DNA of 21,632 nucleotides, from IMG/VR virus record IMGVR_UViG_3300031753_000198, positions 1-21,632 of that record; one strand, written 5' to 3'. Of this stretch, positions 1,184 through 21,612 are shown piece by piece (positions within the stretch are counted from its first letter, which is position 1; the number at the start of each line of letters is the position of its first letter). The DNA comes from a virus. Below the pieces are notes generated by a model that was not told the DNA's origin, made no database searches, and was given only the letters and a program-made list of their open reading frames with translations. A program made the translations under genes and the position numbers.

Positions 1184-1383
1184 AGGTTTTCCTCAATTGT
1201 GGATAAACCGCCGTTCGCCAGTGGGCGAAGGTTTGAAACATGCGGACGCGCGGGAACGCGAATGCGCACCGCGGGCCGAATCCGAATTGGTTTGCTACCA
1301 GCCTCAGCGATCGAGCGCTTCGCCGCGCGCAGGCTCGCATGGAGTCGCCAACACAGAATAGCCCAACCTATCAGGCGCTTCAC
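1180..1383 (-). CDS. Small protein with hydrophobic N-terminus
   Basis: 67 residues from a GTG at 1383 that overlaps the previous stop (GTGA); its own stop overlaps the next start (GTGA at 1180). The first about 15 residues (MKRLIGWAILCW) look like a short membrane segment or signal, and the rest is strongly basic. Its C-terminal third overlies a diverged copy (1207-1257) of the dispersed 50-bp element, read antisense. No family recognised. The coupling on both sides is the main evidence that it is a gene; the protein sequence alone is weak. Confidence 0.5.
   Translation of the reverse strand: MKRLIGWAILCWRLHASLRAAKRSIAEAGSKPIRIRPAVRIRVPARPHVSNLRPLANGGLSTIEENL
1207..1257 (+). repeat. Diverged dispersed element copy
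   Basis: The left motif is lost, but TTCGCCAGTGGGCGAAGG (1214-1231) matches the copy at 21311-21360 at 16 of 18 positions, and GCGCGGGAAC stands at the right end. TTCGCC and GGCGAA form a hairpin. Confidence 0.5.
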
Positions 1384-2565: not shown

Positions 2566-4209
2566 GTGGTAGGCGTTTCGACGGTTGACGAGACCAAAAA
2601 GAAGCCTAGCAAGGGCGCGAAAGTTGCGACGGAACACGAAAACGCGACTTCCGAGACACCCAAAAACGGCGCGGAATCGACTATAGGAGTCCAATCGAGC
2701 CAGGAGACGCCGGAAACCGCCGAAATCCCCGAATATCCCCGTACTCCCCGCAAATTGAGCTTCGATCAGTTCTGCGTATACTGGAACAACACCTTGACTA
2801 CCGAGCAGCGCGAGCGCGGAGTCGTGTACTGCTATCGGCATTGGCCTATCCTGGAGCCCGTCGAGACCACTACGGCGGCAGGCAACCCGGATTTCTCAAA
2901 CCCCTGCGCCGACAAGTTCAGCCACCTGGATCCGCCATTGAACATCGACCTTGTGTTGAAGCGTTGCGGCCTTGGGACATACAGCTTTCGGCTGAATCAA
3001 AACGTGAAGAGGCCGTACGGGACTCTTACCAATGCGCGCCTCGATACCGATCGCGATAACTGGAATGAGCACATGCCGATCATTCCGCCAGACCGAAAGG
3101 TCGATTTCAGCGACCCTGCGAACGAAAGATACAAAACTATCCTCGTCTCCAAAGGGATGTTGAAATCAACCGATACTCAGCAAGGAGCAGAAGAAGAAAT
3201 GGCAGCCACCAGCGTTTTAGGCGAAATCGCTTCAAAAGCATTCGATCAAAAGTTTCAGCAACAGCCCGCTCAGCAGCCTGCGGCAGATATCGGCGGAGGT
3301 GTAGGCACTGAACTGGTAGGATTGCTACGCGAACAAATCACTATGAACCGTCCGCCCAGCCAGCAAGGAACTGTCAAGGATCAACTGGAAGGCCTAGTCA
3401 CGCTCGCGAAGACGATGACGCCGCCAGCCGCTGCGGCTCCCGACATGGGACCCTACATCGAGCTCCAGCGCCAGAACAACGAACTGGTCCGGGAGTTGAT
3501 GCGCAAAGATGTGGAACGCGCAGAGGCCGAAGCGCAGAAGGCCCGTGAAGAAGCCGCCCAGTACAAAGCCGCTCTCCCTCAGCCTAAAACAGTTGACGAG
3601 CAATTCGACGAATTGGAACGCGCTGCGAAACGTTTCGAGAGGATGACGGGCGCGAAGAAGAAAGAAGAATCGGACGAAGAGCGCGACAATCCGCAGACCG
3701 CGGCCGGATTCTGGGGAGGCCTCTTCGGCGCCCTTCCCACAATTCTGAAAGAAGGCGTAACCCTCCTGCGTGAGGTCAATATCGGGCTGTATAACTACAA
3801 GCTGAACGGAGGAGGCGGCCCGCCATTGAATCCCGCTACAGGTCAGCCCGGTACCGAGCCTCTCTCCCCAACCGAAGATGCCGAAGACGACGGCCCACTC
3901 TCTCCTGAAGATCAGGCTAAAATGGAACGCATGCAAAATGTCGTCAATCAGCTTTCCTCTTTGGCTCAACCGATGCTCGCTCACCTGATGCGCAACAAGC
4001 CCGGTAGCGAGTTCGCCAAGTTTGTAATCGAGAACTATGGCTCCCAGGCCTTTGAAACGGTACGGGGCGTAGAAGGCGGCTCTGCAACGATCCTGGCGAT
4101 GATCCAGCAGTATCCCCCGGTCTGGAATCAGATAGGGCCCGCGAAGCTTCCGCAGTTTACGCAGTTTTTGAATGAGTTCATGATGTATTCAGGAGCTCCG
4201 GTGCAATGA
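2566..4209 (+). CDS. Large unknown protein with central coiled coil
   Basis: 547 residues from GTG 2566, with GAGG five bases before it. Residues 1-60 are charged and low-complexity (disordered tail). About 60-200 form an aromatic-rich domain (FDQFCVYWNNTLTTEQRERG). About 210-270 are Gln/Pro/Ala-rich. About 290-375 form a long charged coiled coil (ELQRQNNELVRELMRKDVER onward). About 385-415 form a Gly/hydrophobic segment, followed by a second acidic linker and a helical C-terminal domain ending YPPVWNQIG...LNEFMMYSG. No family recognised. The build (disordered ends, coiled coil, helical tail) would suit a structural, scaffold or DNA-packaging accessory protein, but that is inference. It leads the plus-strand operon and contains no copy of the dispersed element. 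Confidence 0.85.
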   Translation: MVGVSTVDETKKKPSKGAKVATEHENATSETPKNGAESTIGVQSSQETPETAEIPEYPRTPRKLSFDQFCVYWNNTLTTEQRERGVVYCYRHWPILEPVETTTAAGNPDFSNPCADKFSHLDPPLNIDLVLKRCGLGTYSFRLNQNVKRPYGTLTNARLDTDRDNWNEHMPIIPPDRKVDFSDPANERYKTILVSKGMLKSTDTQQGAEEEMAATSVLGEIASKAFDQKFQQQPAQQPAADIGGGVGTELVGLLREQITMNRPPSQQGTVKDQLEGLVTLAKTMTPPAAAAPDMGPYIELQRQNNELVRELMRKDVERAEAEAQKAREEAAQYKAALPQPKTVDEQFDELERAAKRFERMTGAKKKEESDEERDNPQTAAGFWGGLFGALPTILKEGVTLLREVNIGLYNYKLNGGGGPPLNPATGQPGTEPLSPTEDAEDDGPLSPEDQAKMERMQNVVNQLSSLAQPMLAHLMRNKPGSEFAKFVIENYGSQAFETVRGVEGGSATILAMIQQYPPVWNQIGPAKLPQFTQFLNEFMMYSGAPVQ

Positions 4210-4214
4210 TTATA

Positions 4215-4263
4215 ATTTGGGCGCAACTGTCCACACTGTTCGGAATTGACAGGGCGCGGAGGA
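4215..4263 (+). repeat. Dispersed element copy, intergenic, supplies ribosome binding site
   Basis: 49 bp from ATTTGGG to GCGCGGAGGA in the 58-bp gap between two plus-strand genes. The right end contributes the GGAGG that precedes ATG 4268. The last 25 bases are close to the copy at 11036-11085 (both contain GACAGGGCGCGGAG). Confidence 0.7.
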
Positions 4264-4267
4264 AGTC

Positions 4268-4636
4268 ATGATGCGCAGGCGCTTGGCTGCTGTCCTTCGT
4301 GGCGACGTGTTGCCTCTCACTCCCCGTGAGTGTTGGGCCGTCGAACAACAATTGAATCCGGCAGTCTTGCCTTTCGCTGAATGGTTGGAGCGTCTAGAGA
4401 AGCCGCGCCCTCTGATCGCACCCACGCCACCATTGCCGCCTGCGATAAAGCCCACGCAACGATTAGTTACTGTTTTACGCGAACAGAACGCGGAAGAGCG
4501 TAAACGCCGGATCGCTTCTGACGCCGCTTTGCTCTATCCGTGGGGTTCGCCGCAGTTTTACGCCTACATCGACAACCACAGCGCTCCCGCTACCACGGAC
4601 CCGCCTGGACAGGCGAACGGAGGTTCACCCCAATGA
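4268..4636 (+). CDS. Unknown basic protein with element-derived C-terminus
   Basis: 122 residues; ATG 4268 (a second ATG follows at once) stands behind a strong GGAGGAAG site that belongs to a dispersed element. The body is basic and helical, with a Pro-rich stretch (PLIAPTPPLPPAIKPTQ) in the middle. The last about 20 residues (DNHSAPATTDPPGQANGG) are encoded by a 66-bp segment that recurs almost identically at the end of the next gene. The stop overlaps the next start (ATGA). No family recognised. Confidence 0.65.
   Translation: MMRRRLAAVLRGDVLPLTPRECWAVEQQLNPAVLPFAEWLERLEKPRPLIAPTPPLPPAIKPTQRLVTVLREQNAEERKRRIASDAALLYPWGSPQFYAYIDNHSAPATTDPPGQANGGSPQ
4571..4636. repeat. 66-bp junction repeat, copy 1
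   Basis: Identical at 64 of 66 positions to 5227-5292. It carries the last codons and stop of the upstream gene, the GGAGG site and the ATG of the downstream gene. Within it, 4575-4634 is a 60-bp copy of the dispersed element in minus orientation (ends ATTGGGG and GCGCTGTGGT). Confidence 0.9.
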
Positions 4637-5292
4637 CGCCTTTCACGGCTCCTGATCCTCAGCTTTCCAAGATGCACCGCCGCGCCCAGATGCGCATGGT
4701 TCAGGCGTTCCAGTTGTTCATGATCCAGATCGCCCACGGGTCGAAACCGAAAGACGCCATCAGTACGATTGACGAGGCGATGGAATTTTGGACCAACTAC
4801 GAAGACCGCTACGAAACCGAGAACCCCCTGCCCGATATGCCCGATCCCACGGGCGCGATGATTGCGAACTTTCAACAGGTCATGGCGAAGATGGGCGAGA
4901 ACGCCGACAAGATCGGCGCCGGCAATGCCCAACTGTATGCCATCCATCCGCGCGATATCATTGAAGCTTCGCGCGACATGGCCCGCGCTTCACGAGATAT
5001 GCTAGCTGCCGGTCTCGAAAGCGTTTTGCCTGTTGGTAGTGAGAAGTTGATAGCCGCTGAGTTGCAAGCCCGCATGAATCTAGTGATGGATTGCTTCAAC
5101 ACGGGCGCGGCCATGATGCTCAAAATGCTCCATGGGGATGCGCGGCCCGAGCCTTGGTCTGACAATTACGACCATGAGGAACGGATTGCGCATCTGCTTT
5201 CTGACTTCGGCTTGCTTTGCGAACACGACAACCACAGCGCTCCCGCTAGCACGGACCCGCCTGGACAGGCGAACGGAGGTTCACACCAATGA
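4633..5292 (+). CDS. Unknown 219-residue helical protein
   Basis: Start is ATG 4633, overlapping the previous stop (ATGA) with GGAGG upstream; an in-frame ATG at 4540 lies inside the previous gene and is not used. The protein is Met-rich and mostly helical (RAQMRMVQAFQLFMIQIAHG; ASRDMARASRDMLAAG), with an NFQQVMAKMGENADKIG helix in the middle. No membrane segment or catalytic motif is evident. The last about 20 residues are nearly the same as those of the preceding gene, because both come from the 66-bp junction repeat. Function unknown; small helical proteins beside the coiled-coil protein could be its partners, which is only a guess. Confidence 0.72.
   Translation: MTPFTAPDPQLSKMHRRAQMRMVQAFQLFMIQIAHGSKPKDAISTIDEAMEFWTNYEDRYETENPLPDMPDPTGAMIANFQQVMAKMGENADKIGAGNAQLYAIHPRDIIEASRDMARASRDMLAAGLESVLPVGSEKLIAAELQARMNLVMDCFNTGAAMMLKMLHGDARPEPWSDNYDHEERIAHLLSDFGLLCEHDNHSAPASTDPPGQANGGSHQ
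5227..5292. repeat. 66-bp junction repeat, copy 2
   Basis: Two mismatches to 4571-4636. It again ends exactly on the overlapping stop and start (ATGA at 5289-5292) and carries GGAGG. The dispersed-element core is 5231-5290, 60 bp, minus orientation. Confidence 0.9.
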
Positions 5293-5579
5293 AAATCGAA
5301 ATAGATAACGACTCCTGCACCTATCGCCTAACAGACGGTGAAGAAGACGGCATCACAGGACTAATCGTCCCTTACGGAGAAAGATCCATCCTGGACGAAA
5401 CGGTACCCGAAGCGGAGCAATGGTGGGCGGAAATCGATGACGATGGATGCTGTGATGGGCTGGCTCACAAGGGCGATTCAACCGACTCGGAGCCTGTCGA
5501 ATTTGAACTCGATTGCGAATTCGAAGAGGAAGACGAAACCGGGGATACCGAAGACGCCGAAGACGCGGAGCCTGCATGA
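5289..5579 (+). CDS. Small highly acidic protein
   Basis: 96 residues from ATG 5289 (ATGA overlap; ribosome binding site from the junction repeat). Very rich in Asp and Glu throughout; residues about 65-94 are almost only acidic (FELDCEFEEEDETGDTEDAE). Such acidic phage proteins are often DNA mimics or inhibitors of DNA-binding proteins, but nothing here is specific enough to claim that. Three cysteines in DDGCCDG and ELDCEF. No family recognised. Its stop overlaps the next start (ATGA). Confidence 0.65.
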   Translation: MKIEIDNDSCTYRLTDGEEDGITGLIVPYGERSILDETVPEAEQWWAEIDDDGCCDGLAHKGDSTDSEPVEFELDCEFEEEDETGDTEDAEDAEPA

Positions 5580-5956: not shown

Positions 5957-6285
5957 TGGAAATCTTAAACCGATTCCCGGTATCCGGCTCCTGCGATGGC
6001 TGCAAGAAAGCCTGGCGAGTGGATATCCCGTTAGGCTCCAAGGTCCAAGTGATCGCCCGCTACGTCGAAGACTCGCACCGCGAGCGCTCCCCCAATTGTC
6101 CAAGAGCGAAAGCCATCCTCACCTCAGACCGGTCTTTCCTTGACGACATCGCCGCTCAGATTGAATTCAGGATGCCGCGAACCAACGGAGCGACTCCGGT
6201 TTTCAGGATGACGTGGAGGGATGCGGATGAATTGGATTTAACGAAAGACGAGCGTAAGACGCCGATGATTATTATCGGGCGTTAG
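5956..6285 (+). CDS. Small protein with CxxC motif, unknown
   Basis: 109 residues; ATG 5956 shares its A with the previous stop (TGATG). CDGCKKAW near residue 13 and a later cysteine in SPNCPRAK may bind one zinc. The rest looks like a small alpha/beta protein. It ends the plus-strand operon; its stop overlaps by three bases the stop of the convergent minus-strand gene (TAG/TAA at 6282-6285), so the two operons meet without any space for a classic terminator. Confidence 0.65.
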   Translation: MEILNRFPVSGSCDGCKKAWRVDIPLGSKVQVIARYVEDSHRERSPNCPRAKAILTSDRSFLDDIAAQIEFRMPRTNGATPVFRMTWRDADELDLTKDERKTPMIIIGR

Positions 6286-6581
6286 GGTTCTTTGGGTTTT
6301 TGAATGGAGGTAGTCTGAGGGTCTGGATGTATGGTCCGCGTGTATGCTGTTCGCGTGTAGCCGATACGACATTCGGATGCGTATACCAACTCTCCAAGCT
6401 TTATTCCCGAATCGGCTGTGCGGATTTCAGCAACATGATCACATACGATGATGGTGACCGCGAGTTTCTTGCAGACCAGCCGAATAGCCTCCAGAACAGA
6501 ATCGAGCAGATCGTCACCGCGCAATGGCAATTCTGAAGCGTACGGTACAGATGAGCCCAACGACTGATTCTCGTTCTTCAT
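6282..6581 (-). CDS. Unknown 99-residue protein with element-derived N-terminus
   Basis: ATG 6581 overlaps the upstream stop (ATGA). Residues 7-21 (LGSSVPYASELPLRG) are encoded by the sense copy of the dispersed element at 6513-6562 and closely match the same peptide in the gene at 10584-10769. A hydrophobic helix/strand core follows (LAVTIIVCDHVAEI), then a short tandem YTRTAYTRT. Last gene of the long minus-strand operon. No family recognised. Confidence 0.6.
   Translation of the reverse strand: MKNENQSLGSSVPYASELPLRGDDLLDSVLEAIRLVCKKLAVTIIVCDHVAEIRTADSGIKLGELVYASECRIGYTRTAYTRTIHPDPQTTSIQKPKEP
6513..6562 (-). repeat. Dispersed element copy near the start of 99-residue gene
   Basis: 50 bp, minus orientation, sense to the gene. 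Ends CGTTGGG and GCGCGGTGAC. About four fifths of positions agree with the copy at 10665-10714. Confidence 0.85.
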
Positions 6582-7659: not shown

Positions 7660-10590
7660 TCATAGACCTACTCCCCCGCGTCTGTCAATACCCTTAACCG
7701 GATTTTCAGTCTTCGCTGGTACTTTCTCGCCCGTTTCGATAGGTGGGAGCGCTGGTATTTCGTCCTCGTCTTCGGGCTGCAAGTATTCCGACATATCGAA
7801 CAACGTCGGCGCGTTCAACTTCTGCTCTGCCAGTTTCACGTATGCGGTTCCATCGAAGTGATAGCGCGGGTTCAGTTCGATGCTGATGGATTTTCTCTTC
7901 AGCGGTACCGCGCAATAAGCTACTGTGTGCAAGCCGCCGAATGGATCTAAAACCGTCTCCCCTTCCTGGGAGCACTGGCGGATGACCCGGTTCGCTAGAT
8001 CGAACTGCATCGGGCAGAGGTGCATCTCTCTTCCCTTCGCCGATTGCGCCCCGTTCAGTGTCCGCATTCTCGTGATATCGGTCCAGACGTCGGGATGCCA
8101 GGACTGCGGGGGAAGGAGCATAAACTTGACGGGCAAGATTTTCCGGCGCTCCAATTCTTCCGCGATGCGCACATGGTTTTCGTAGTCGTACACAGTTGTG
8201 ATGGAGTAATGCCGGTATTCCTTGTACATCGCGTGATGGGCGAGTCCTGCGAGTTCTTCTCCCGTCATCAGGCGATCCGGCTTCAATGGCGGGAGTTTGT
8301 GTTTCTTCAGGTCGGCGTAAAACTGCTCTTTCTCTTCGGCGGTCGGCAAGCGATTTCCCGAGCTGCGCTCAAAGCCATGCGCGTCCAACTGCCAACGGGC
8401 CCGGGAGTAGCCGGTCTGCTCTTCCCAGTCTTTCCCTTCCGACGTTGGAATGATGCTCTGGTTTCGATTGTCCTTGTCGTAGGGCGCGATTTCTCCCGTC
8501 TCGCCGTCGATGCAAAGGGACTTGTGTTTGACGACTGGTTCATCGGCGTAGGCGTTGGTCGTATCGGTCGGGGGCTTCCGAAAGATGAGCAAGTATTCCG
8601 GCATCCCCACGCCCATCTTGGTGCCGTCTTTACATTGCTCGGTCCAGCCTAATCGGTACGTCTGGTTGTTCTCTCGCACTACGTCGGTGACGATGGTTTT
8701 CATTCCCATGTAGGCGAATCCGTGGCGCTCGAAATGATCTGCGGTTTTTGAATGGAAACGATACACGGTCTGGAAGCCGAGGCCTGTGATTCCGCCTGGT
8801 ACGATCCGGTCCTTGACGTGGATCGCGCACACGCGGCCCGGTTTTAGTACCTTCAGCAGCCGCGGCGTGAGAAAATCCATCTGCGCGAAAAAGTGCTCGT
8901 TGCCGTCCGTATGGCCGAAATCGTTGTACGACGGCGTGTATTCGTACTGCGTGCTGAACGGTATCGAGGTAAGCACGAGGTCTACACTGTTCGGCACCAT
9001 CGTTTCCAGTTCTTCCACGCTGTCGTTATTGATGAGCCGCGCTGTCTCTGTTGCGACTTCGGCGCGCTCGATTCCCATCGCGCGGGCGAGTACGCTTTGA
9101 ATGGCCGCCTGGGATAAGCCGTACTCGCGGATGATCTCGCTCATGCGCGCCGATTGCTGATTGTGGCGCTCCCACTTTTGCATGAGGCTCTCCAGAATCA
9201 GCCGCTCCGACTCCGCATAGATCAGGTGAATTCGCACCGTCTTGGTCTGAAGGTAGCGCCGGATTCTGTGAATCGCTTGGATGAAGTCGCGGAACTTGAA
9301 CCCGATCCCCACGAAGATTGCATCCGCACAGTGCCTCTGCCAGTTCACGCCGGCTCCGAGCATTACAGGCTTGCCGGCGATGTATTGAATCTCCCCGTTA
9401 GCGAATCGAGCAACCGCATCCGCGATTTCTTCGTCGCCTCCGACTTTTCCGCGGAGTCCTCCGTACACGCTGACCACTTCCGGTACCGCCTTTTCGATGG
9501 CGTGGCGTTCGGCTTCCAAATCGTGCCAGAGGATGAAATGCTTGTCGGGCTCGGCATCGAGGATCTCGCGCATCTTCTCGATTCGTTCGGGCAGGGTATC
9601 GCGCTTTTCTCGAGCCGCTTCCGAAACACCGTGGGACGCCTCGCGGAACATTCTTCCTTGCCCGTCCTTTTCTTCGTGCGCCGTCGAGTGATCTACCTTC
9701 ACTTCGTGCTTGATGACTTCCAGCGGAGGAATGGCGTAGCCTTCATCCGAGAAACCAAGGTCTGAAGGGGTATATAAAAACAATCCCCAGGTGGAGCACC
9801 AAAACCAGAATTCTTTAACCTTGTGCGGATGCAAGGTAAGTTTATCGGCGTGTACCGAGTCGCGTTTGAAAAACCGCGTCTTCGCCTGGCTCACGTCCAT
9901 GATCCCCAAGAATGCCGCGTAGGCGAGTAGTTCTATGTACTCGTTAGGGTCCGGTGTTGCCGTCGCCACGAAGCGATAGGGCACGGCTTCAAACAGCCGC
10001 ATGAATTCGCGGAAAGTTTTCGTACCGCCGAAGGATGACAGTATGCTTGCTTCGTCCAGGCTGGCAACTACAAACTTCTGCGGGTCGAGTTTCCCGTCGC
10101 GCACGGTCTCGTAGTTGGTGAGGTAGATTCCGGTCTCGTCCGCTTCTTCGATACGCCGAATGAACTTGAGCGGGATACCGACTCTCTCCGCGTCGATGGC
10201 GAATTCCTGCTGTACGCCAAGTGGCGCCACGATCAGGGCTCGGCCGTTCTGGCCTTTCTTTGCCAGTGCTCGCAAGATGAGCCACAGTATCAAGAGCTGC
10301 TGGACCGTCTTGCCCAGTCCGAAGGATTCAAACAGCGCGCGCCGGCCGCCGCGGGCTCCCCAGATGATTCCTGCCGCCTGGTGGGGTTTTAATTCAAAGC
10401 CGCTCGGGAAACTCATCTGTAAGTCGGCGGGTTCGATGGGGATGCCGAGCTCTTGCGGGAGGTTGTATTTCGCTCTGAGGAATTCGCGGTACGCTTCGAT
10501 GGAGTAATCCCCATCCGCCCTTTCTTGCGCCAGTGGACATCCGGCCTTGTGGCCGCGGTGGACCCTACAGGATGGGCAATTCTCTACCAT
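7660..10590 (-). CDS. Fused SNF2/DEAD-like helicase and DNA adenine/cytosine-N4 methyltransferase
   Basis: 976 residues from ATG 10590, which has AAGGAG at good spacing; an upstream ATG at 10665 lies inside the previous gene. The N-terminus has a possible zinc knuckle (CPSCRVHRGHKAGC). Helicase motifs: Walker A FGLGKT (90-95), DEAS box (189-192), TAT (210-212), motif VI QAIHRIRR (438-445). Methyltransferase motifs: catalytic loop TSIPFS (541-546) in place of the usual (S/D/N)PP(Y/F), then DPFGGLHT (882-889) and SIELNPRY (903-910) for S-adenosylmethionine binding. The order catalytic loop, then SAM site, is that of beta-class amino-methyltransferases. Likely role: ATP-driven movement on DNA coupled to base methylation, protecting phage DNA from host restriction; target base and site unknown. 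No separate nuclease domain is seen. Confidence 0.9.
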   Translation of the reverse strand: MVENCPSCRVHRGHKAGCPLAQERADGDYSIEAYREFLRAKYNLPQELGIPIEPADLQMSFPSGFELKPHQAAGIIWGARGGRRALFESFGLGKTVQQLLILWLILRALAKKGQNGRALIVAPLGVQQEFAIDAERVGIPLKFIRRIEEADETGIYLTNYETVRDGKLDPQKFVVASLDEASILSSFGGTKTFREFMRLFEAVPYRFVATATPDPNEYIELLAYAAFLGIMDVSQAKTRFFKRDSVHADKLTLHPHKVKEFWFWCSTWGLFLYTPSDLGFSDEGYAIPPLEVIKHEVKVDHSTAHEEKDGQGRMFREASHGVSEAAREKRDTLPERIEKMREILDAEPDKHFILWHDLEAERHAIEKAVPEVVSVYGGLRGKVGGDEEIADAVARFANGEIQYIAGKPVMLGAGVNWQRHCADAIFVGIGFKFRDFIQAIHRIRRYLQTKTVRIHLIYAESERLILESLMQKWERHNQQSARMSEIIREYGLSQAAIQSVLARAMGIERAEVATETARLINNDSVEELETMVPNSVDLVLTSIPFSTQYEYTPSYNDFGHTDGNEHFFAQMDFLTPRLLKVLKPGRVCAIHVKDRIVPGGITGLGFQTVYRFHSKTADHFERHGFAYMGMKTIVTDVVRENNQTYRLGWTEQCKDGTKMGVGMPEYLLIFRKPPTDTTNAYADEPVVKHKSLCIDGETGEIAPYDKDNRNQSIIPTSEGKDWEEQTGYSRARWQLDAHGFERSSGNRLPTAEEKEQFYADLKKHKLPPLKPDRLMTGEELAGLAHHAMYKEYRHYSITTVYDYENHVRIAEELERRKILPVKFMLLPPQSWHPDVWTDITRMRTLNGAQSAKGREMHLCPMQFDLANRVIRQCSQEGETVLDPFGGLHTVAYCAVPLKRKSISIELNPRYHFDGTAYVKLAEQKLNAPTLFDMSEYLQPEDEDEIPALPPIETGEKVPAKTENPVKGIDRRGGVGL
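10556..10590. repeat. 35-bp gene-start repeat, copy 1 (MVENCPSC)
   Basis: First 35 bp of the helicase-methyltransferase gene; the same sequence with four mismatches begins the small gene just upstream (10735-10769). Both encode MVENCPSC(R/K)VHR. Confidence 0.9.
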
Positions 10591-10769
10591 TCGATATCTC
10601 CTTCTGGATTGTCGGGAGCGTTCAGACAGAGTCCTCGGTGTGCTGGTTCGCCGCATTTCGGACATTTACCGCGCAATGCCGGTTCTGAACCTGCGGGAAC
10701 AGATGAGCCCAAACTATCTTGATTTTCCTCTGATCGATGGACTTTACAGGAGGGGCAATTCTCTACCAT
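10584..10769 (-). CDS. Small zinc-ribbon protein sharing its start with the helicase
   Basis: 61 residues, ATG 10769 just after the previous stop (TAAATG) with GGAG upstream. CPSC at residues 5-8 and CPKCGEPAHRGLC at about 36-48 make a likely zinc ribbon. The first 12 residues are nearly the same as those of the following helicase-methyltransferase. Immediately after them lies the sense element copy 10665-10714, encoding LGSSVPAGSEPALRG. The stop (TAG 10584-10586) overlaps the start region of the helicase, so translation is probably coupled. Perhaps a partial duplicate of the helicase 5' end later joined to another zinc module. Confidence 0.7.
   Translation of the reverse strand: MVENCPSCKVHRSEENQDSLGSSVPAGSEPALRGKCPKCGEPAHRGLCLNAPDNPEGDIEW
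10665..10714 (-). repeat. Dispersed element copy in small zinc-ribbon gene
   Basis: 50 bp, minus orientation, sense to the gene. Ends GTTTGGGCTCA and GCGCGGTAAA. Closest relative in the window is 6513-6562. Confidence 0.88.
10735..10769. repeat. 35-bp gene-start repeat, copy 2
   Basis: See 10556-10590; spacing between copies is 179 bp. The repeat breaks off where the dispersed element region begins. Confidence 0.9.
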
Positions 10770-11021
10770 TTACTTTTTCTCCGTGTTTGAATTCGGGCTA
10801 TCGAGTGATTCCTTGTGGGCGCTCCGCTCGTTGGCTATCAGTGCTTTCTCGGTTTCCCAGTCCATTATTCCCATTGTGAGCAACCATGCCGGAGCGGTTT
10901 TGAAGTCGGGCCGGTTTTCGATCTCCGCTATCTCGCGGTCGCAGCGGGCGAGTCCGCGGATCGGGCAGTTCGGCTCTCGCGGCGCGTCCGGTTCGGCGTG
11001 GGGATTGCAAAGGCACGTCAC
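10770..11021 (-). CDS. Small Cys-containing protein, unknown
   Basis: 83 residues from GTG 11021, overlapping the previous stop (GTGA). MTCLCNPHAEP and NCPIRGLARC hold four cysteines and one His that could bind zinc. A helix (DREIAEIENRP) and a Trp-containing segment follow. The end (SPNSNTEKK) resembles the antisense tail left by the element in the gene at 16990-17277 (LNPNTENTEK), hinting at a decayed copy near 10785-10828. Function not recognised. Confidence 0.62.
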   Translation of the reverse strand: MTCLCNPHAEPDAPREPNCPIRGLARCDREIAEIENRPDFKTAPAWLLTMGIMDWETEKALIANERSAHKESLDSPNSNTEKK

Positions 11022-11248
11022 GAAGCGCTCTCCTGATCTCCGCGCCCTGTCGGGTCCGAATCGGGTGACGTGTCGCGGCCAACAACTGGAATAAATTGAA
11101 ACTGAGGCCCACCGTAATGCAACTGCCGAGCTGCTTTATCTTGGCAGAAGTCGAGCCATCTGCGGATGACTTCCGCCGCTTCGCCGGTCGCTACTTGCTT
11201 TGATCCGTCCGCATACTCGATTTCGATTCGGGTGCAAGGTATATTCAT
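11018..11248 (-). CDS. Unknown 76-residue protein
   Basis: ATG 11248 overlaps the previous stop (ATGA) and the end overlaps the next GTG (GTGA). The N-terminal half looks like a small alpha/beta unit (TRIEIEYADGSKQVATGEAAEVIRRWL split over two elements). The C-terminal third, starting VGRDTSPDSDPTGRG, comes from the sense element copy at 11036-11085. No family recognised. Confidence 0.62.
   Translation of the reverse strand: MNIPCTRIEIEYADGSKQVATGEAAEVIRRWLDFCQDKAARQLHYGGPQFQFIPVVGRDTSPDSDPTGRGDQESAS
11036..11085 (-). repeat. Dispersed element copy, diverged left end
   Basis: 50 bp, minus orientation, sense to the gene. Left end TTGTTGG is diverged; right end GCGCGGAGAT is clear. Shares 20 of the last 25 positions with the copy at 4215-4263. 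Confidence 0.65.
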
Positions 11249-13771: not shown

Positions 13772-14158
13772 TGGGCAACTCCCCAGTTTCTACTTGCTTT
13801 CGCTGATTGGTTATGATAAGGTGGCATTGTTCAGGAAGGCTCTTGCGGACATTGGGAAATGTTTAACCGCTTGGGCCTTTTTGCTTTCTAGGGTCATTTT
13901 CGGACTCACCCAACCATACACCCAGTCCTAGTGTTTCGGCAAGAACAATTTTTCTCTCGCATGCCATTCTTTAGTCTTACCTCTTAAAGACACTATAGAT
14001 ATAGTCTTATGGAAATGAACTCCAGTGGACGTGTTTTTGGAATTCCAGTGGAGGGGTATGCGAACTCGGGTTCACGGATTTTTAGGGGTTGGCGGGTCCT
14101 GTCGGCGAAGGTTACCGGGAGGATTTTAGTTGGTTGGCGGGTCCTGTCGGCTAAGGTT
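13772..14158. other. Non-coding region upstream of replication genes; candidate origin/control region
   Basis: 387 bp without a convincing gene on either strand. It holds an inverted repeat at 13987-14008, a direct repeat TCCAGTGGA at 14021-14029 and 14044-14052, and two 27-bp copies at 14087-14113 and 14132-14158. The promoter for the gene starting at 13771 must lie here; I see no consensus pair, though the TATAG-rich inverted repeat is a candidate. A 28-codon minus-strand frame (ATG near 13900) overlaps nothing and is unsupported. Confidence 0.5.
13987..14008. promoter_or_regulatory. AT-rich inverted repeat
   Basis: AAGA...CTATA-GA-TATAG-TCTT: two arms pair with a two-base bulge. Suits a repressor operator, an initiator site or a -10 region; function not determined. 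Confidence 0.45.
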
Positions 14159-14182
14159 TCAGGTTTTCGAGAGCGCGGTAGA
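14064..14182 (+). repeat. Expanded dispersed element with internal 27-bp duplication
   Basis: Left end ACTCGGGTTCAC and right end GCGCGGTAGA match the family. The interior contains two 27-bp copies (14087-14113, 14132-14158; one mismatch; 45-bp period) that include GTCGGC(G/T)AAGG, a string also found in the copy at 21311-21360. Total 119 bp. Confidence 0.6.
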
Positions 14183-15551: not shown

Positions 15552-15702
15552 CAACAATCTCCAGTAATTCCTCAATCTTCTTAAGCATCGATTCTTCCTC
15601 CTGATTCAATCCCCTCGGCATCAATTTTTGCATAGATAAAAAGACCCACAAATGTATCAACTCGTCTTGGTCTAACTCTAAGTTGTACAAGAGAGTGGGC
15701 AT
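15544..15702 (-). CDS. 52-residue helical protein
   Basis: ATG 15702 shares the last A of the upstream TAA (TAATG), and the stop overlaps the start of the HNH gene. The sequence is protein-like and helical: LYNLELDQDELIHLWVFLS then MLKKIEELLEIVDG. Codon context here is AT-richer than its neighbours. No family recognised. Its position, exactly bridging two genes, is strong support. Confidence 0.65.
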   Translation of the reverse strand: MPTLLYNLELDQDELIHLWVFLSMQKLMPRGLNQEEESMLKKIEELLEIVDG

Positions 15703-16022
15703 TAGCGGGATTTCCCCTTTTTGTGTTTGGGCTGAAGGCTGGGGACGGGTTTACGTTTGCCAGTGCGCGGTGGTCGTAGCCTAGCTTCAAGTTTTTCTAT
15801 TTCCCGTTTCAGTCCTGGCCATCGGCTAGTCTGTGCTGCGCGGGGAAACTCCCTCACCAGCGCTATCAGATACCTCACCAATTCAAACGCTCGCTGGTCG
15901 TTGGCAAGCGCTGATGTGGTATTTGGATAGAATCCATCGAACTCTGAGCTAAACGGGCGCTCTTCTTGATGGAAGCACCATGCTTCCAATAATTGGAGGT
16001 CCTTTTCACTCGGTACCCTCAT
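15702..16022 (-). CDS. Unknown 106-residue protein
   Basis: ATG 16022 overlaps the stop of the DUF5131 gene (ATGA). The N-terminal 80 residues look helical (EKDLQLLEAWCFHQEERPFS; AFELVRYLIALVREFP). The very basic C-terminus (RPPRTGKRKPVPSLQPKHKK) is encoded by the antisense element copy at 15725-15774. A different frame here (15581-15790) is a shadow. No family recognised. Confidence 0.65.
   Translation of the reverse strand: MRVPSEKDLQLLEAWCFHQEERPFSSEFDGFYPNTTSALANDQRAFELVRYLIALVREFPRAAQTSRWPGLKREIEKLEARLRPPRTGKRKPVPSLQPKHKKGKSR
15725..15774 (+). repeat. Dispersed element copy in C-terminus of 106-residue gene
   Basis: 50 bp; GTTTGGGCTGAAG at left, GCGCGGTGGT at right. Antisense to the gene. 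Confidence 0.85.
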
Positions 16023-16993
16023 CGGGGAAACTCCCGGATACGGAGATCGACGGGCCACTCGTCCCAGTTGCCGCCTTTGGAATCAACTAGTGGGTAATGT
16101 GTTCGGAGGCAATTTGTTTTACTGGCGACCGGATGCGCGCCCAACTGCTTCACAAATACAGACACGCCAGCCGCTTTACACTGGCGGATGGTCTCTCTGG
16201 CCCATTCGAGGTCGAAGGGCCGCGCCTGAGGCCCAGATTCGCCGCCTACGATAACCCAGTCGAGCCCGCTCCGGCATTCTGCGGCAAGGTCTGGATATCC
16301 CCCGGCTCGGTTCCATCGCGCATTGGCTTCACACTGAGCGCATCGGCCTGAAAATCCGTGCGCACACCGCAAGAAGCGTCTAAAATCGAGTCCTGCCAGC
16401 GCGGGTTCATAACTCACAAACCGTAGCGCTGCCGGCGTCTGCAACAATAAAGGGATTCTGGCGTCTGCGGTAGCCTGGTCTTCGACGGATACACCTTCCC
16501 ATACGTTGGGTAGGGGCCAACTAAATCCAACTTTAATATTTCGTTCTATCAAAATATCGACACCCTGCCGTCGCACACGGTTCGGCGTGAGAGGATCAGT
16601 AGTCCATTCCCGCATCCGTTCCGGGCGTTTCGTCAGCACTTGGAAAGTGTGTTGCGGGCAGAGTGCCATCAAAGCGAAAACCCGGTCTATCGCCTCATCG
16701 GGTAAATTTTCATAGAATAGATCCGACATGCTGTTGACGAACACACGCCGGGGCTTTTTCCAGTGGAGCGGTTCGGTCAACTTGGATTCGATCAGTTCAA
16801 CCTTACCTGTCCAGTGGGGGCCGTCGCCGTTCAAGACGGCGAACGCTTCGCCAGTCGTCGGGCTGCGGAGTCCTGGGAAATTCCGTGCTGCCTGGCGCTC
16901 GGCGTAGCAATTCCGGCAGCCTTCGGAAACTCGAGAACAGCCGCGCACGGGGTTCCAGGTCTCGTCGGTCCATTCGATGGGCGTAATACTCAA
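16019..16993 (-). CDS. Phage Gp37/Gp68 family protein (DUF5131), radical-SAM-like
   Basis: 324 residues from TTG 16993, overlapping the previous stop (TTGA) with GGGAGG five bases upstream. IEWTDETWNPVRGCSRVSEGCRNCYAE at the N-terminus holds the CX6CX2C motif, an iron-sulfur-type signature of this family. FVNSMSDLFYENLP, VLTKRPERM, NVWEGVSVEDQ, RFVSYEPALAG and WVIVGGESGPQARP are further conserved blocks. A Cys-rich insert (CAHGFSGRCAQCEANARW) lies in the middle. The family is named after genes 37 and 68 of mycobacteriophages L5 and D29; its biochemical role is not settled. Full length, no frame problem, no element inside. Confidence 0.92.
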   Translation of the reverse strand: MSITPIEWTDETWNPVRGCSRVSEGCRNCYAERQAARNFPGLRSPTTGEAFAVLNGDGPHWTGKVELIESKLTEPLHWKKPRRVFVNSMSDLFYENLPDEAIDRVFALMALCPQHTFQVLTKRPERMREWTTDPLTPNRVRRQGVDILIERNIKVGFSWPLPNVWEGVSVEDQATADARIPLLLQTPAALRFVSYEPALAGLDFRRFLRCAHGFSGRCAQCEANARWNRAGGYPDLAAECRSGLDWVIVGGESGPQARPFDLEWARETIRQCKAAGVSVFVKQLGAHPVASKTNCLRTHYPLVDSKGGNWDEWPVDLRIREFPR

Positions 16994-17277
16994 CCGCGCC
17001 TCCCGCTGCCGCGCTCAGGTAGGGTTTTTTCAGTATTCTCAGTGTTTGGGTTCAACGCTGACGACGGGTACAGAGCGGTCAATGCGCGGTAGCCATCTGA
17101 GCACTTCCAGCAGCGCGCCCTGTAAATCCCGTTCGATGTCGTCTTATGGCCACACTCCAACAGAACGAGGTTGCGGTCGAAGATGCTGTTCTTGTAGACG
17201 CTCAATACTTGGACGATCTTCCGCAATGGGCTGCGACGCTGGTTCGGGCTACCGCTTGTTTTGCCTTTTAATTTCAT
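16990..17277 (-). CDS. Small zinc-binding protein
   Basis: 95 residues from ATG 17277, two bases after the previous stop, with GGGAGG upstream. LLECGHKTTSNGIYRARCWKC gives a C-x-H...CxxC zinc site. The N-terminal half (RKIVQVLSVYKNSIFDRNLV) is predicted alpha/beta. The C-terminal 35 residues are element-derived: YRALTALYPSSALNPNTENTEK from 17044-17093 and PERGSGRRG from a 25-bp repeat also present at the end of the upstream gene. Function unknown; perhaps nucleic-acid binding. Confidence 0.68.
   Translation of the reverse strand: MKLKGKTSGSPNQRRSPLRKIVQVLSVYKNSIFDRNLVLLECGHKTTSNGIYRARCWKCSDGYRALTALYPSSALNPNTENTEKTLPERGSGRRG
16992..17016. repeat. 25-bp tail/ribosome-site repeat, copy 1
   Basis: Identical to 17282-17306. 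On the minus strand it encodes ERGSGRRG plus the GGGAGG that serves the next gene, followed by the overlapping stop and start. Confidence 0.92.
17044..17093 (+). repeat. Dispersed element copy in C-terminus of 95-residue gene
   Basis: 50 bp; GTTTGGGTTCAAC to GCGCGGTAGC. Antisense to the gene. Confidence 0.88.
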
Positions 17278-17279
17278 AC

Positions 17280-17576
17280 TTAACCGCGCCTCCCGCTGCC
17301 GCGCTCCGGTATCTCCGATCCGCCGGGGAAGCCTGTATTCAACCTCTGAAAATAAGCGATCAATTCCAAGTGCCGCAACCAACTTTCTAATCGAAACTCG
17401 TCTTGTTCTCGATGAGCTGCATAGAAGCCTTTCAAAGCTAAAAATACGTCAGGGTTTCGAGGTTGTGTGTGCATGAATAATCTTATCGGCTGCGAGGTGA
17501 AAATCTTCAGTGTTTGGGTTTGACAGTGGTCGAAGGGGTTCGACTGTGGGCGCGCGGTGGCGAGAGCGCTAGTCAT
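17280..17576 (-). CDS. Unknown 98-residue protein with element at both ends
   Basis: ATG 17576 lies inside the last codons of the upstream gene, with AGGAG nine bases before it. Residues about 5-22 (LATARPQSNPFDHCQTQT) come from the antisense copy at 17512-17561. The last 20 (RLNTGFPGGSEIPERG and tail) come from the sense copy at 17295-17344. The middle is a plausible folded part (DVFLALKGFYAAHREQDEFR; SWLRHLELIAYF). No family recognised. About a third of the product is element-encoded. Confidence 0.62.
   Translation of the reverse strand: MTSALATARPQSNPFDHCQTQTLKIFTSQPIRLFMHTQPRNPDVFLALKGFYAAHREQDEFRLESWLRHLELIAYFQRLNTGFPGGSEIPERGSGRRG
17282..17306. repeat. 25-bp tail/ribosome-site repeat, copy 2
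   Basis: Identical to 16992-17016; here too it ends one gene and provides GGGAGG for the next. Confidence 0.92.
17295..17344 (-). repeat. Dispersed element copy at end of 98-residue gene
   Basis: 50 bp, minus orientation, sense. Left GGTTGAATACAGGC, right GCGCGGCAGC. Its right end merges with the 25-bp repeat at 17282-17306. Confidence 0.75.
17512..17561 (+). repeat. Dispersed element copy with strong hairpin
   Basis: 50 bp; GTTTGGGTTTGAC to GCGCGGTGGC, antisense to the gene. 17523-17534 and 17539-17547 pair around a GGGG loop (TCGAA/TTCGA plus ACAGT/ACTGT, three unpaired bases). Confidence 0.9.
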
Positions 17577-21200: not shown

Positions 21201-21411
21201 TGCGCTGTGGGCGCTGGCTGCCTGCTTACTGATTGAAGCGTTCTTTGCGCCGGTGGCGCGGATTGTCTGCATGTGCCGGTATCGGGTAATAATTCAACGG
21301 GCTGAAGAAAGTTTGGGTTCACCAGTCGGCGAAGGGGTGGACAACTCAGGGCGCGGTGGCAGACCAGTTCCAGCCGATTCGAAGCGAGATTTGACCGCTT
21401 CCGCGCCCTGA
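21190..21411 (+). CDS. Small membrane protein with element-derived tail
   Basis: 73 residues from GTG 21190, eleven bases inside the J-domain gene, with GAGG upstream. Residues about 4-25 (ALWALAACLLIEAFFAPVAR) are one membrane segment, followed by CMCRYRV. From residue 41 the protein is encoded by the sense element copy (LGSPVGEGVDNSGRG) and a short polar end. The stop abuts the convergent stop at 21412 with no room for a terminator. Confidence 0.62.
   Translation: MPGDALWALAACLLIEAFFAPVARIVCMCRYRVIIQRAEESLGSPVGEGVDNSGRGGRPVPADSKRDLTASAP
21311..21360 (+). repeat. Dispersed element copy, near-consensus
   Basis: 50 bp, sense to the gene: GTTTGGGTTCACC to GCGCGGTGGC. Best single example of the 50-bp form. 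Confidence 0.9.
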
Positions 21412-21612
21412 CTATTTCAGATTGGTCAGACTGGTCAACGGCGGTTTATCCCTAAATTCTCGAAAGTACTGAACCGTCTTCATCCCATCCCTACCAAACC
21501 AAGCAAATATAGGAACAAGAATCAGCCAGAATATCCAGCGCTTCATTTTGGGGTACACCTCGGTTCGCCTGTCGGTTGCGGGTCCGTGCTTGCCGGGGCG
21601 CGGTGGCTTCAT
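21412..21612 (-). CDS. Small membrane protein with element-derived N-terminus
   Basis: 66 residues from ATG 21612, overlapping the stop of a gene at the right edge (ATGA). The first 20 residues (KPPRPGKHGPATDRRTEVY) are encoded by the antisense copy at 21547-21607. Residues about 24-39 (RWIFWLILVPIFAWFG) are one membrane helix. An alternative start at ATG 21546, behind the element's GAGGTG, would give a 44-residue protein lacking the element part and is equally plausible. Confidence 0.6.
   Translation of the reverse strand: MKPPRPGKHGPATDRRTEVYPKMKRWIFWLILVPIFAWFGRDGMKTVQYFREFRDKPPLTSLTNLK
21547..21607 (+). repeat. Dispersed element copy, 61-bp form
   Basis: TTTGGGGTACACC at left and GCGCGGTGGC at right. 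Its interior (GGTTCGCCTGTC, GCGGGTCCGTG) is close to the 60-bp copies at 4575-4634 and 5231-5290. Read on the minus strand it places GAGGTG ahead of an ATG, as those do. Confidence 0.85.

Follow-up and report, generated by a model that had tools for sequence, protein, structure and literature searches.

The stretch of DNA analysed here (the window) is a complete, linear IMG/VR record of 21,632 bases, probably a fragment, whose gene products include a DnaB helicase, an SNF2-like/N6-N4 methylase fusion and a DUF5131 protein. On its plus strand lie g1 (4268-4636, 122 aa) and g2 (4633-5292, 219 aa), both of unknown function, followed by the downstream gene g3 (5289-5579, 96 aa). Searches of Pfam and PHROG with the genes around the two junctions gave no match, and searches of IMG/VR with g1 and g2 retrieved no relatives. 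Both junctions are occupied by copies of one direct repeat, c1 (4570-4636, plus strand) and c2 (5226-5292, plus strand), which are 67 bp long, spaced by 656 bp and 97% identical without a gap (2 mismatches; self-BLAST E=4e-26). Each copy comprises the last 22 codons and the stop of the upstream gene (g1 for c1, g2 for c2), a GGAGG positioned 9 nt 5' of the next start, and that start itself (of g2 and g3, respectively), which overlaps the stop as a 4-bp ATGA. The two upstream ORFs end almost identically, in DNHSAPATTDPPGQANGGSPQ and DNHSAPASTDPPGQANGGSHQ directly before the stop. A sequence-only reading had described such a near-identical cassette at two successive junctions, built of a gene end with its stop, a ribosome site and the next start and giving both upstream proteins nearly the same tail, and in all these points it was confirmed. 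The arrangement suggests that the ribosome site of the cassette is used in translation and that translation may be coupled through it.

A third copy had been proposed to place a similar ribosome site before an ATG. This copy, c3 (21548-21606, minus strand), is 79.7% identical with one 1-nt indel and carries CGAGGTG about 10 nt before the ATG at 21546, in agreement with that proposal. Its upstream frame is not fused in the same way, since a TGA abuts its 5' side (TGA-AGCCACCGCGCC); c3 is therefore intergenic, whereas c1 and c2 are read as protein tails. Because of this TGA and the indel, which shifts the tail frame, the tail peptide is not conserved in c3.

An old duplication of the entire gene that left only the tails alike would account for the same tail ending both proteins. 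A single comparison of the g1 and g2 bodies outside the tail gave E=0.054 over 38 aa, which is not a convincing similarity, and the same kind of tail is present on the g2 homologue of a related contig (G001) and on unrelated ORFs. As the bodies are unrelated, whole-gene duplication, the outcome that would have overturned the cassette reading, can be taken as ruled out for practical purposes.

Relatives of the window

The nearest relatives of the window are three contigs of 54-56 kb, G001 (3300050133_000100), G002 (3300021559_000001) and G003 (3300037840_000311), and two further short contigs (G004 and G005) are also related; a search with the DnaB alignment found no additional members of the clade. 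DnaB identity within this group is 64-88%, gene order is largely common to the window and its relatives, and the nearest relative varies from gene to gene. The comparison rests on four genomes (G000-G003), all of them metagenomic, uncultivated contigs, and the four phages that host the elements described below are related and undescribed. Among the proteins of G003 (L101-L103) are a Cpn10-like chaperonin, an ice-binding-domain protein, a papain-family protease and a glycosyltransferase, and neither a terminase nor a capsid family was recognised among them by Pfam. Relatives of the methylase fusion occur in at least 94 IMG/VR stretches, mostly at 50-60% identity, in phages that are otherwise different (L004-L083).

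A family of dispersed junction elements

When the cassette was searched against the relatives, many weak matches were obtained. Iterative nhmmer yielded a subfamily A (about 53 matches), to which c1, c2 and c3 belong, and a subfamily B (about 52). Merging of overlaps left 105 elements in six contigs, 100 of them within G000-G003, where their density is one per 1.5-2.1 kb and they sit where genes end and begin; the window also carries more diverged members beyond c1-c3. Subfamily A is laid out as CCGCGC, about 28 variable bases and GAACGGCGGTTTAYCCC, and subfamily B as CCGCGCAATGCCGA, a variable part and GAGCCCAAAC; by eye, B resembles A minus about 11 bases. The unit is about 45-60 bp in size, with CCGCGC conserved at one end, GAACGGCGGTTTAYCCCCAAA (A) or GAGCCCAAAC (B) at the opposite end and a variable middle. 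The ACGGCGGTTTAYCC core is near-invariant in translated and untranslated copies alike. A related third family, C, was found at about 32 places.

A strict A pattern scanned across IMG/VR matched only G002 and G003. The roughly 80 other phage loci that share the methylase (1.3 Mb) held no other family member, and named phages gave no DNA match to the cassette. No convincing copy was found in bacterial and archaeal genomes, where 23 scattered single matches, confined to the 3' core, compare with about 17 estimated by chance. As far as seen within the collections searched, the family is confined to one clade of ~55-kb phages. Origin as a host-derived repeat was considered and rejected, the genome scan matches being at chance level.

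The near identity of c1 and c2 (97%, 656 bp apart) could reflect a simple local event in which the 3' end of g2 was copied, in tandem or ectopically, behind g1 with no wider system involved. Such an event would explain at most c1 versus c2, as about 100 family copies exist in four phages and the window itself has the minus-strand site, and as a complete account it is very improbable. Joining of different phages at a repeat during metagenome assembly has to be weighed as well, since all genomes compared are uncultivated contigs. We consider it hardly credible given that c1 and c2 differ at two bases and in their flanks, that the c2 junction was found independently in G001 and that elements occur in five other contigs.

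Two further candidates for what keeps the copies alike were tried. A conserved tail peptide as the driver was rejected, for the 3' part of A shows no freer codon position in the tail frame; copies of A outside the tail frame are conserved equally to those read in it. An apparent conserved protein tail can thus echo a DNA repeat, which makes such tails an annotation trap. An RNA hairpin or terminator was rejected in the absence of a fold signal: for A and B on both strands, mean z lay between -0.25 and 0.27, and the folds were not more stable than those of shuffled sequences. A tally of 24 upstream proteins in 14 unrelated groups was set aside, since antisense artefacts occur among the long upstream ORFs.

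Placement, orientation and ribosome site

Elements lie close to gene boundaries, at a median distance of 38 bp where random positions give 132 bp (A and B each p<1e-8). Subfamily A is found mostly just 5' of a start, many copies ending 2-30 nt from it, and subfamily B mostly after a stop or at first codons. With respect to neighbouring genes, A copies were same-sense in 31 cases and opposite in 6, and B copies antisense in 32 and same-sense in 9, counts that are approximate since the gene models come from our own crude caller, as are those of shared tails, which are upper bounds. At G003 36518, for example, the copy is preceded by a long ORF that runs antisense to a DUF1003 gene, and the real genes (DUF1003 and a g1 homologue) are on the other strand; errors of this kind render the orientation and shared-tail counts only approximate. 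Some upstream genes stop just before the element (c3 in the window, G003 47021 and G002 51501), and others run into it in more than one reading frame. In the early genes, several proteins contain ...LGSTVPPGSESALRE..., internally or at their start, as the in-frame translation of B copies.

The GGAGG of c1 and c2 is a minority variant. Most A cores read GGCGG, which is not a Shine-Dalgarno sequence, with a separate ribosome site further downstream, and B contains no ribosome-site motif. GGAGG was present in 4 of the 8 A copies with a start no more than 12 nt from the core, in contrast to 1 of the 26 others (GGCGG or CGAGG; Fisher p=0.007). This association with nearby starts indicates that one base change suffices to make the element a properly spaced Shine-Dalgarno beside a start: in an A copy ending 2 nt 5' of a start, a C-to-A change would convert GGCGG into a correctly spaced GGAGG, the association being observed and its cause presumed. 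Judged from these arrangements, elements can supply the end of one gene together with the ribosome site of the next. The idea of a mobile junction cassette needs revision in one respect, as the stop, ribosome site and start do not form a special unit and represent one variant within a larger family; the similar copies at non-matching junctions and their sharp ends, described below, bear the idea out.

Turnover of elements across junctions

Several junctions keep an element across phages, and the element sequences do not track synteny. Identity between A copies averaged 69.8% at syntenic junctions of different phages and 69.8% at paralogous junctions of one phage, and only 5 of 37 A elements and 6 of 30 B elements had their best match in the syntenic copy. 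Non-syntenic pairs of about 80-97% identity match over the entire unit, variable middle included, and lose their similarity at the same ends. The lack of closer similarity between copies at matching junctions, together with the fixed ends that highly similar copies have in common, indicates discrete dispersed units, and spread of elements into new junctions is well supported by these sequence comparisons.

The reading we favour, with moderate confidence, is that the cassette belongs to a clade-confined, dispersed junction repeat of about 45-60 bp whose units are copied or moved between junctions, recombination being the favoured route. The comparison shows that elements move, or are copied, to new junctions as discrete units. 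An element would be tolerated at a junction in that it is usually open in at least one frame and ends beside a start codon, so that the upstream gene ends inside or just before it and the next gene stays translatable, a picture partly observed and partly extrapolated. The route of spread may have been recombination of gene cassettes through short homologies, or insertion in the manner of transposition, and we lean to the former. The strongly conserved ends around a variable middle count against this explanation to the extent that they fit a functional site as well as a mobile unit.

The repeats could instead be cis-regulatory sites (promoter, operator, antitermination or translation control, similar to the start-associated (SAS) and extended start-associated (ESAS) sequences of phages), kept alike by function and acquired with genes without moving by themselves. 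The near-invariance of the ACGGCGGTTTAYCC core whether or not a copy is translated, the strand polarity with short distances to starts and the several syntenic copies kept at the same junction across phages all agree with regulation, and ESAS of mycobacteriophages are likewise conserved junction by junction (PMC3203893). Regulatory sites would be less expected to be read in more than one frame, to lie in part within coding sequence, to be mostly antisense to genes, as B is, and to show no RNA fold signal, and function does not readily explain why near-identical copies at different junctions also match in the variable middle. We regard cis-regulation as the whole explanation as rather doubtful. 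In the favoured reading, the repeats on which recombination acts would also be under cis-functional constraint.

Another alternative is that the elements are selfish, non-autonomous transposable elements of the MITE, REP or RPE kind, in which A and B would form the two ends of an inverted-repeat unit that depends on a host or phage enzyme acting in trans for its mobility. Their discrete ends would suit this, as would the adjacent inverted B-A pairs, which are 9 nt apart at three places and 32 nt apart at one. A G003 gene, moreover, contains an in-frame 72-nt A copy that is missing from the G002 orthologue; an ATG/GTG follows this site in both phages, which allows it to be read as an old gene junction instead. 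No target-site duplication was seen by eye in this filled/empty pair or in the paired elements inspected, no transposase was found among the 59 G003 proteins scanned, the bacterial and archaeal genomes scanned hold no convincing copy, and the A and B ends differ systematically. Taken together, these observations make transposable elements unlikely.

Possible gene exchange at the elements

Gain or loss of whole genes bounded by the cassette in related genomes, and recombinants at the cassette, had been suggested as checks. G001 has the cassette between its g2 and g3 homologues (the syntenic copy of c2, at 37352-37402) and, at the position of g1, a different gene and no cassette. A g2 homologue is also present in G003, where the homologue of g1 (37% over 83 aa) is located far from the corresponding site, between a B and an A element. 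The state of G001 suggests that c1 arrived together with g1 and that c1 may be a recent copy of c2, or both may derive from one recent source. At G001 2035-2087, sequence before the element is G002-like and from the end of the element onward G003-like. In G003 35773-36567 (L102), the g1 homologue and the DUF1003 gene have an orientation towards the flanking elements opposite to that of g1 in the window, of which inversion between inverted repeats is one possible cause.

Across the genomes the evidence is less pronounced. Synteny breaks were weakly more frequent at junctions with an element than at those without (OR 0.70, p=0.083), and the effect was gone when both genes were present in the other phage (p=0.46). 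HSP ends fell at elements 27 times compared to 15.0 +/- 4.1 for shifted positions; those at gene boundaries were not enriched at elements (8 compared to 14.3 expected), and for this reason we treat the signal of a recombination hot spot as weak. The suggestion that the cassette splices genes into operons thus holds at one clear locus, where g1 and c1 are missing in G001, and the weak genome-wide enrichment does not extend it; operon splicing would be a single clear case and not a rule. In a stronger form of the suggestion, the cassette would be a mobile junction module landing at gene ends, where it provides the final codons of the upstream gene, a ribosome site that a single mutation would make functional, and an overlapping start. 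Genes could then join an operon while translation stays intact, and A and B copies would serve as the standard right and left boundaries of mobile gene cassettes. This we hold as a tentative possibility.

The joints of mosaic phage genomes lie at gene boundaries, yet it is uncommon to find one marked by a recognisable repeat. In this clade elements recur about once per 2 kb, some copies at separate sites are almost identical, and at least one gene appears to have been gained next to a fresh copy; the clade lends itself to the question whether short junction repeats drive gene exchange or simply outlast it.

Comparison with known dispersed elements

In cluster K mycobacteriophages, SAS are 13-bp motifs beside starts, at the position of the ribosome site and mostly in one direction; half of them carry 17-bp inverted repeats upstream of starts, the ESAS, which are conserved gene by gene (PMC3203893). 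Similar start-associated motifs occur in cluster EF Microbacterium phages (PMC7302621). The window family resembles SAS/ESAS in its many short conserved copies beside gene starts, A lying 31:6 in one orientation (by the approximate counts above) and often less than 30 nt from a start. It differs from them in a unit of 45-60 bp that often overlaps the upstream coding sequence and is found in both orientations, in usually having no ribosome-site core, and in element sequences that do not track junctions, some of which do keep an element.

In cluster O mycobacteriophages a 17-bp palindrome is dispersed through each genome in more than 30 copies, and gene 14 of Corndog lies between the copies of a 17-bp direct repeat of which its relatives have only one (PMC4351075). 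As a phage-specific gene bounded by repeats that are single in relatives, Corndog gene 14 is the closest published parallel to g1/g2. The cluster O repeats are short palindromes with near-invariant arms, whereas the window family is asymmetric, 45-60 bp long and variable in its middle.

The PeSL of T4-type phages, reportedly described by Arbiol et al. in 2010, are said to be early promoters with stem-loops, for which a role as mobile junction cassettes that shuffle phage genes modularly has been proposed. The window family likewise consists of dispersed junction cassettes, and the g1 locus and G001 2035 would fit a bounding of exchanged genes, for which the genome-wide signal is weak (p=0.083); unlike PeSL, it has no stable RNA fold. 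Rickettsia palindromic elements and REP, BIME and MITE sequences are dispersed, occur at gene boundaries and in frame within coding sequences, and are read in more than one frame. Like MITEs and RPEs, the window family consists of discrete dispersed units with fixed ends that are sharp in non-syntenic pairs; unlike them, it resides in a phage clade and has strong polarity relative to genes, and target duplication and a transposase were not seen. The family thus lacks at least one defining feature of three of these systems: the ribosome-site core of SAS, the stem-loop of PeSL and the target duplication of MITEs.

Other elements in the window

Directly before g1, a B element (4216-4259, minus strand) occupies the space between a stop at 4209 and the g1 start, and its terminal GCGCGGAGGAAG appears to be the ribosome site of g1. 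The element carries a mini-ORF (MIIIWAQLSTLFGIDRARRKS followed by a stop) overlapping both neighbours: within 4206-4270, it shares bases with the stop of a 547-aa gene at its ATG and with the g1 start at its stop. From its position, the mini-ORF could possibly act as a translational relay.

Three further A elements were recognised. That at 1201-1253 (minus strand, GGCGG variant) precedes a gene starting at 1183 and has syntenic copies in G001, G002 and G003; that at 21401-21451 (plus strand) is reversed and lies over the 3' end of a 44-aa membrane-like ORF (21412-21546, minus strand); and that at 14142-14178 (minus strand) is partial. Behind the latter, 14076-14163 holds two 43-bp tandem copies (84% identical) resembling partial A elements. 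A weak A/B hybrid is located at 21317-21356 (minus strand, E=0.005).

Additional B elements lie at 15726-15770 (minus strand), at the end of ORF 15702-16022 (minus strand), at 17045-17089 (minus strand), near the end of ORF 16990-17277 (minus strand), and, as a weak match, at 11040-11082 (plus strand), antisense to the C-terminal codons of ORF 11018-11248 (minus strand). Another (6517-6560, plus strand) is antisense to the N-terminal codons of ORF 6282-6581 (minus strand), whose 3' end contains a family C element (6292-6350, minus strand); this 99-aa ORF opens with B-element codons, closes with C-element codons and is probably a real gene, although the gene caller picked the opposite-strand ORF. 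A further C element (10777-10835, minus strand) is at the 3' end of ORF 10770-11021 (minus strand). The 5' end of the helicase-methylase gene is overlain by an antisense B element (10669-10713, plus strand), and the same gene carries B copies in G001, G002 and G005. Flanking this element, an N-terminal segment, MVENCPSC(K/R)VHR, is repeated (10556-10591 and 10735-10770), as if the start of the methylase gene had been duplicated around it.

Outside the A, B and C assignments, a 36-bp repeat (16986-17021 and 17276-17311, 94% identical) covers two successive gene ends. PERGSGRRG forms the C-terminus of both minus-strand proteins, and GGGAGG lies just 5' of a TTGAG stop/start overlap; this pair is possibly a further junction repeat.
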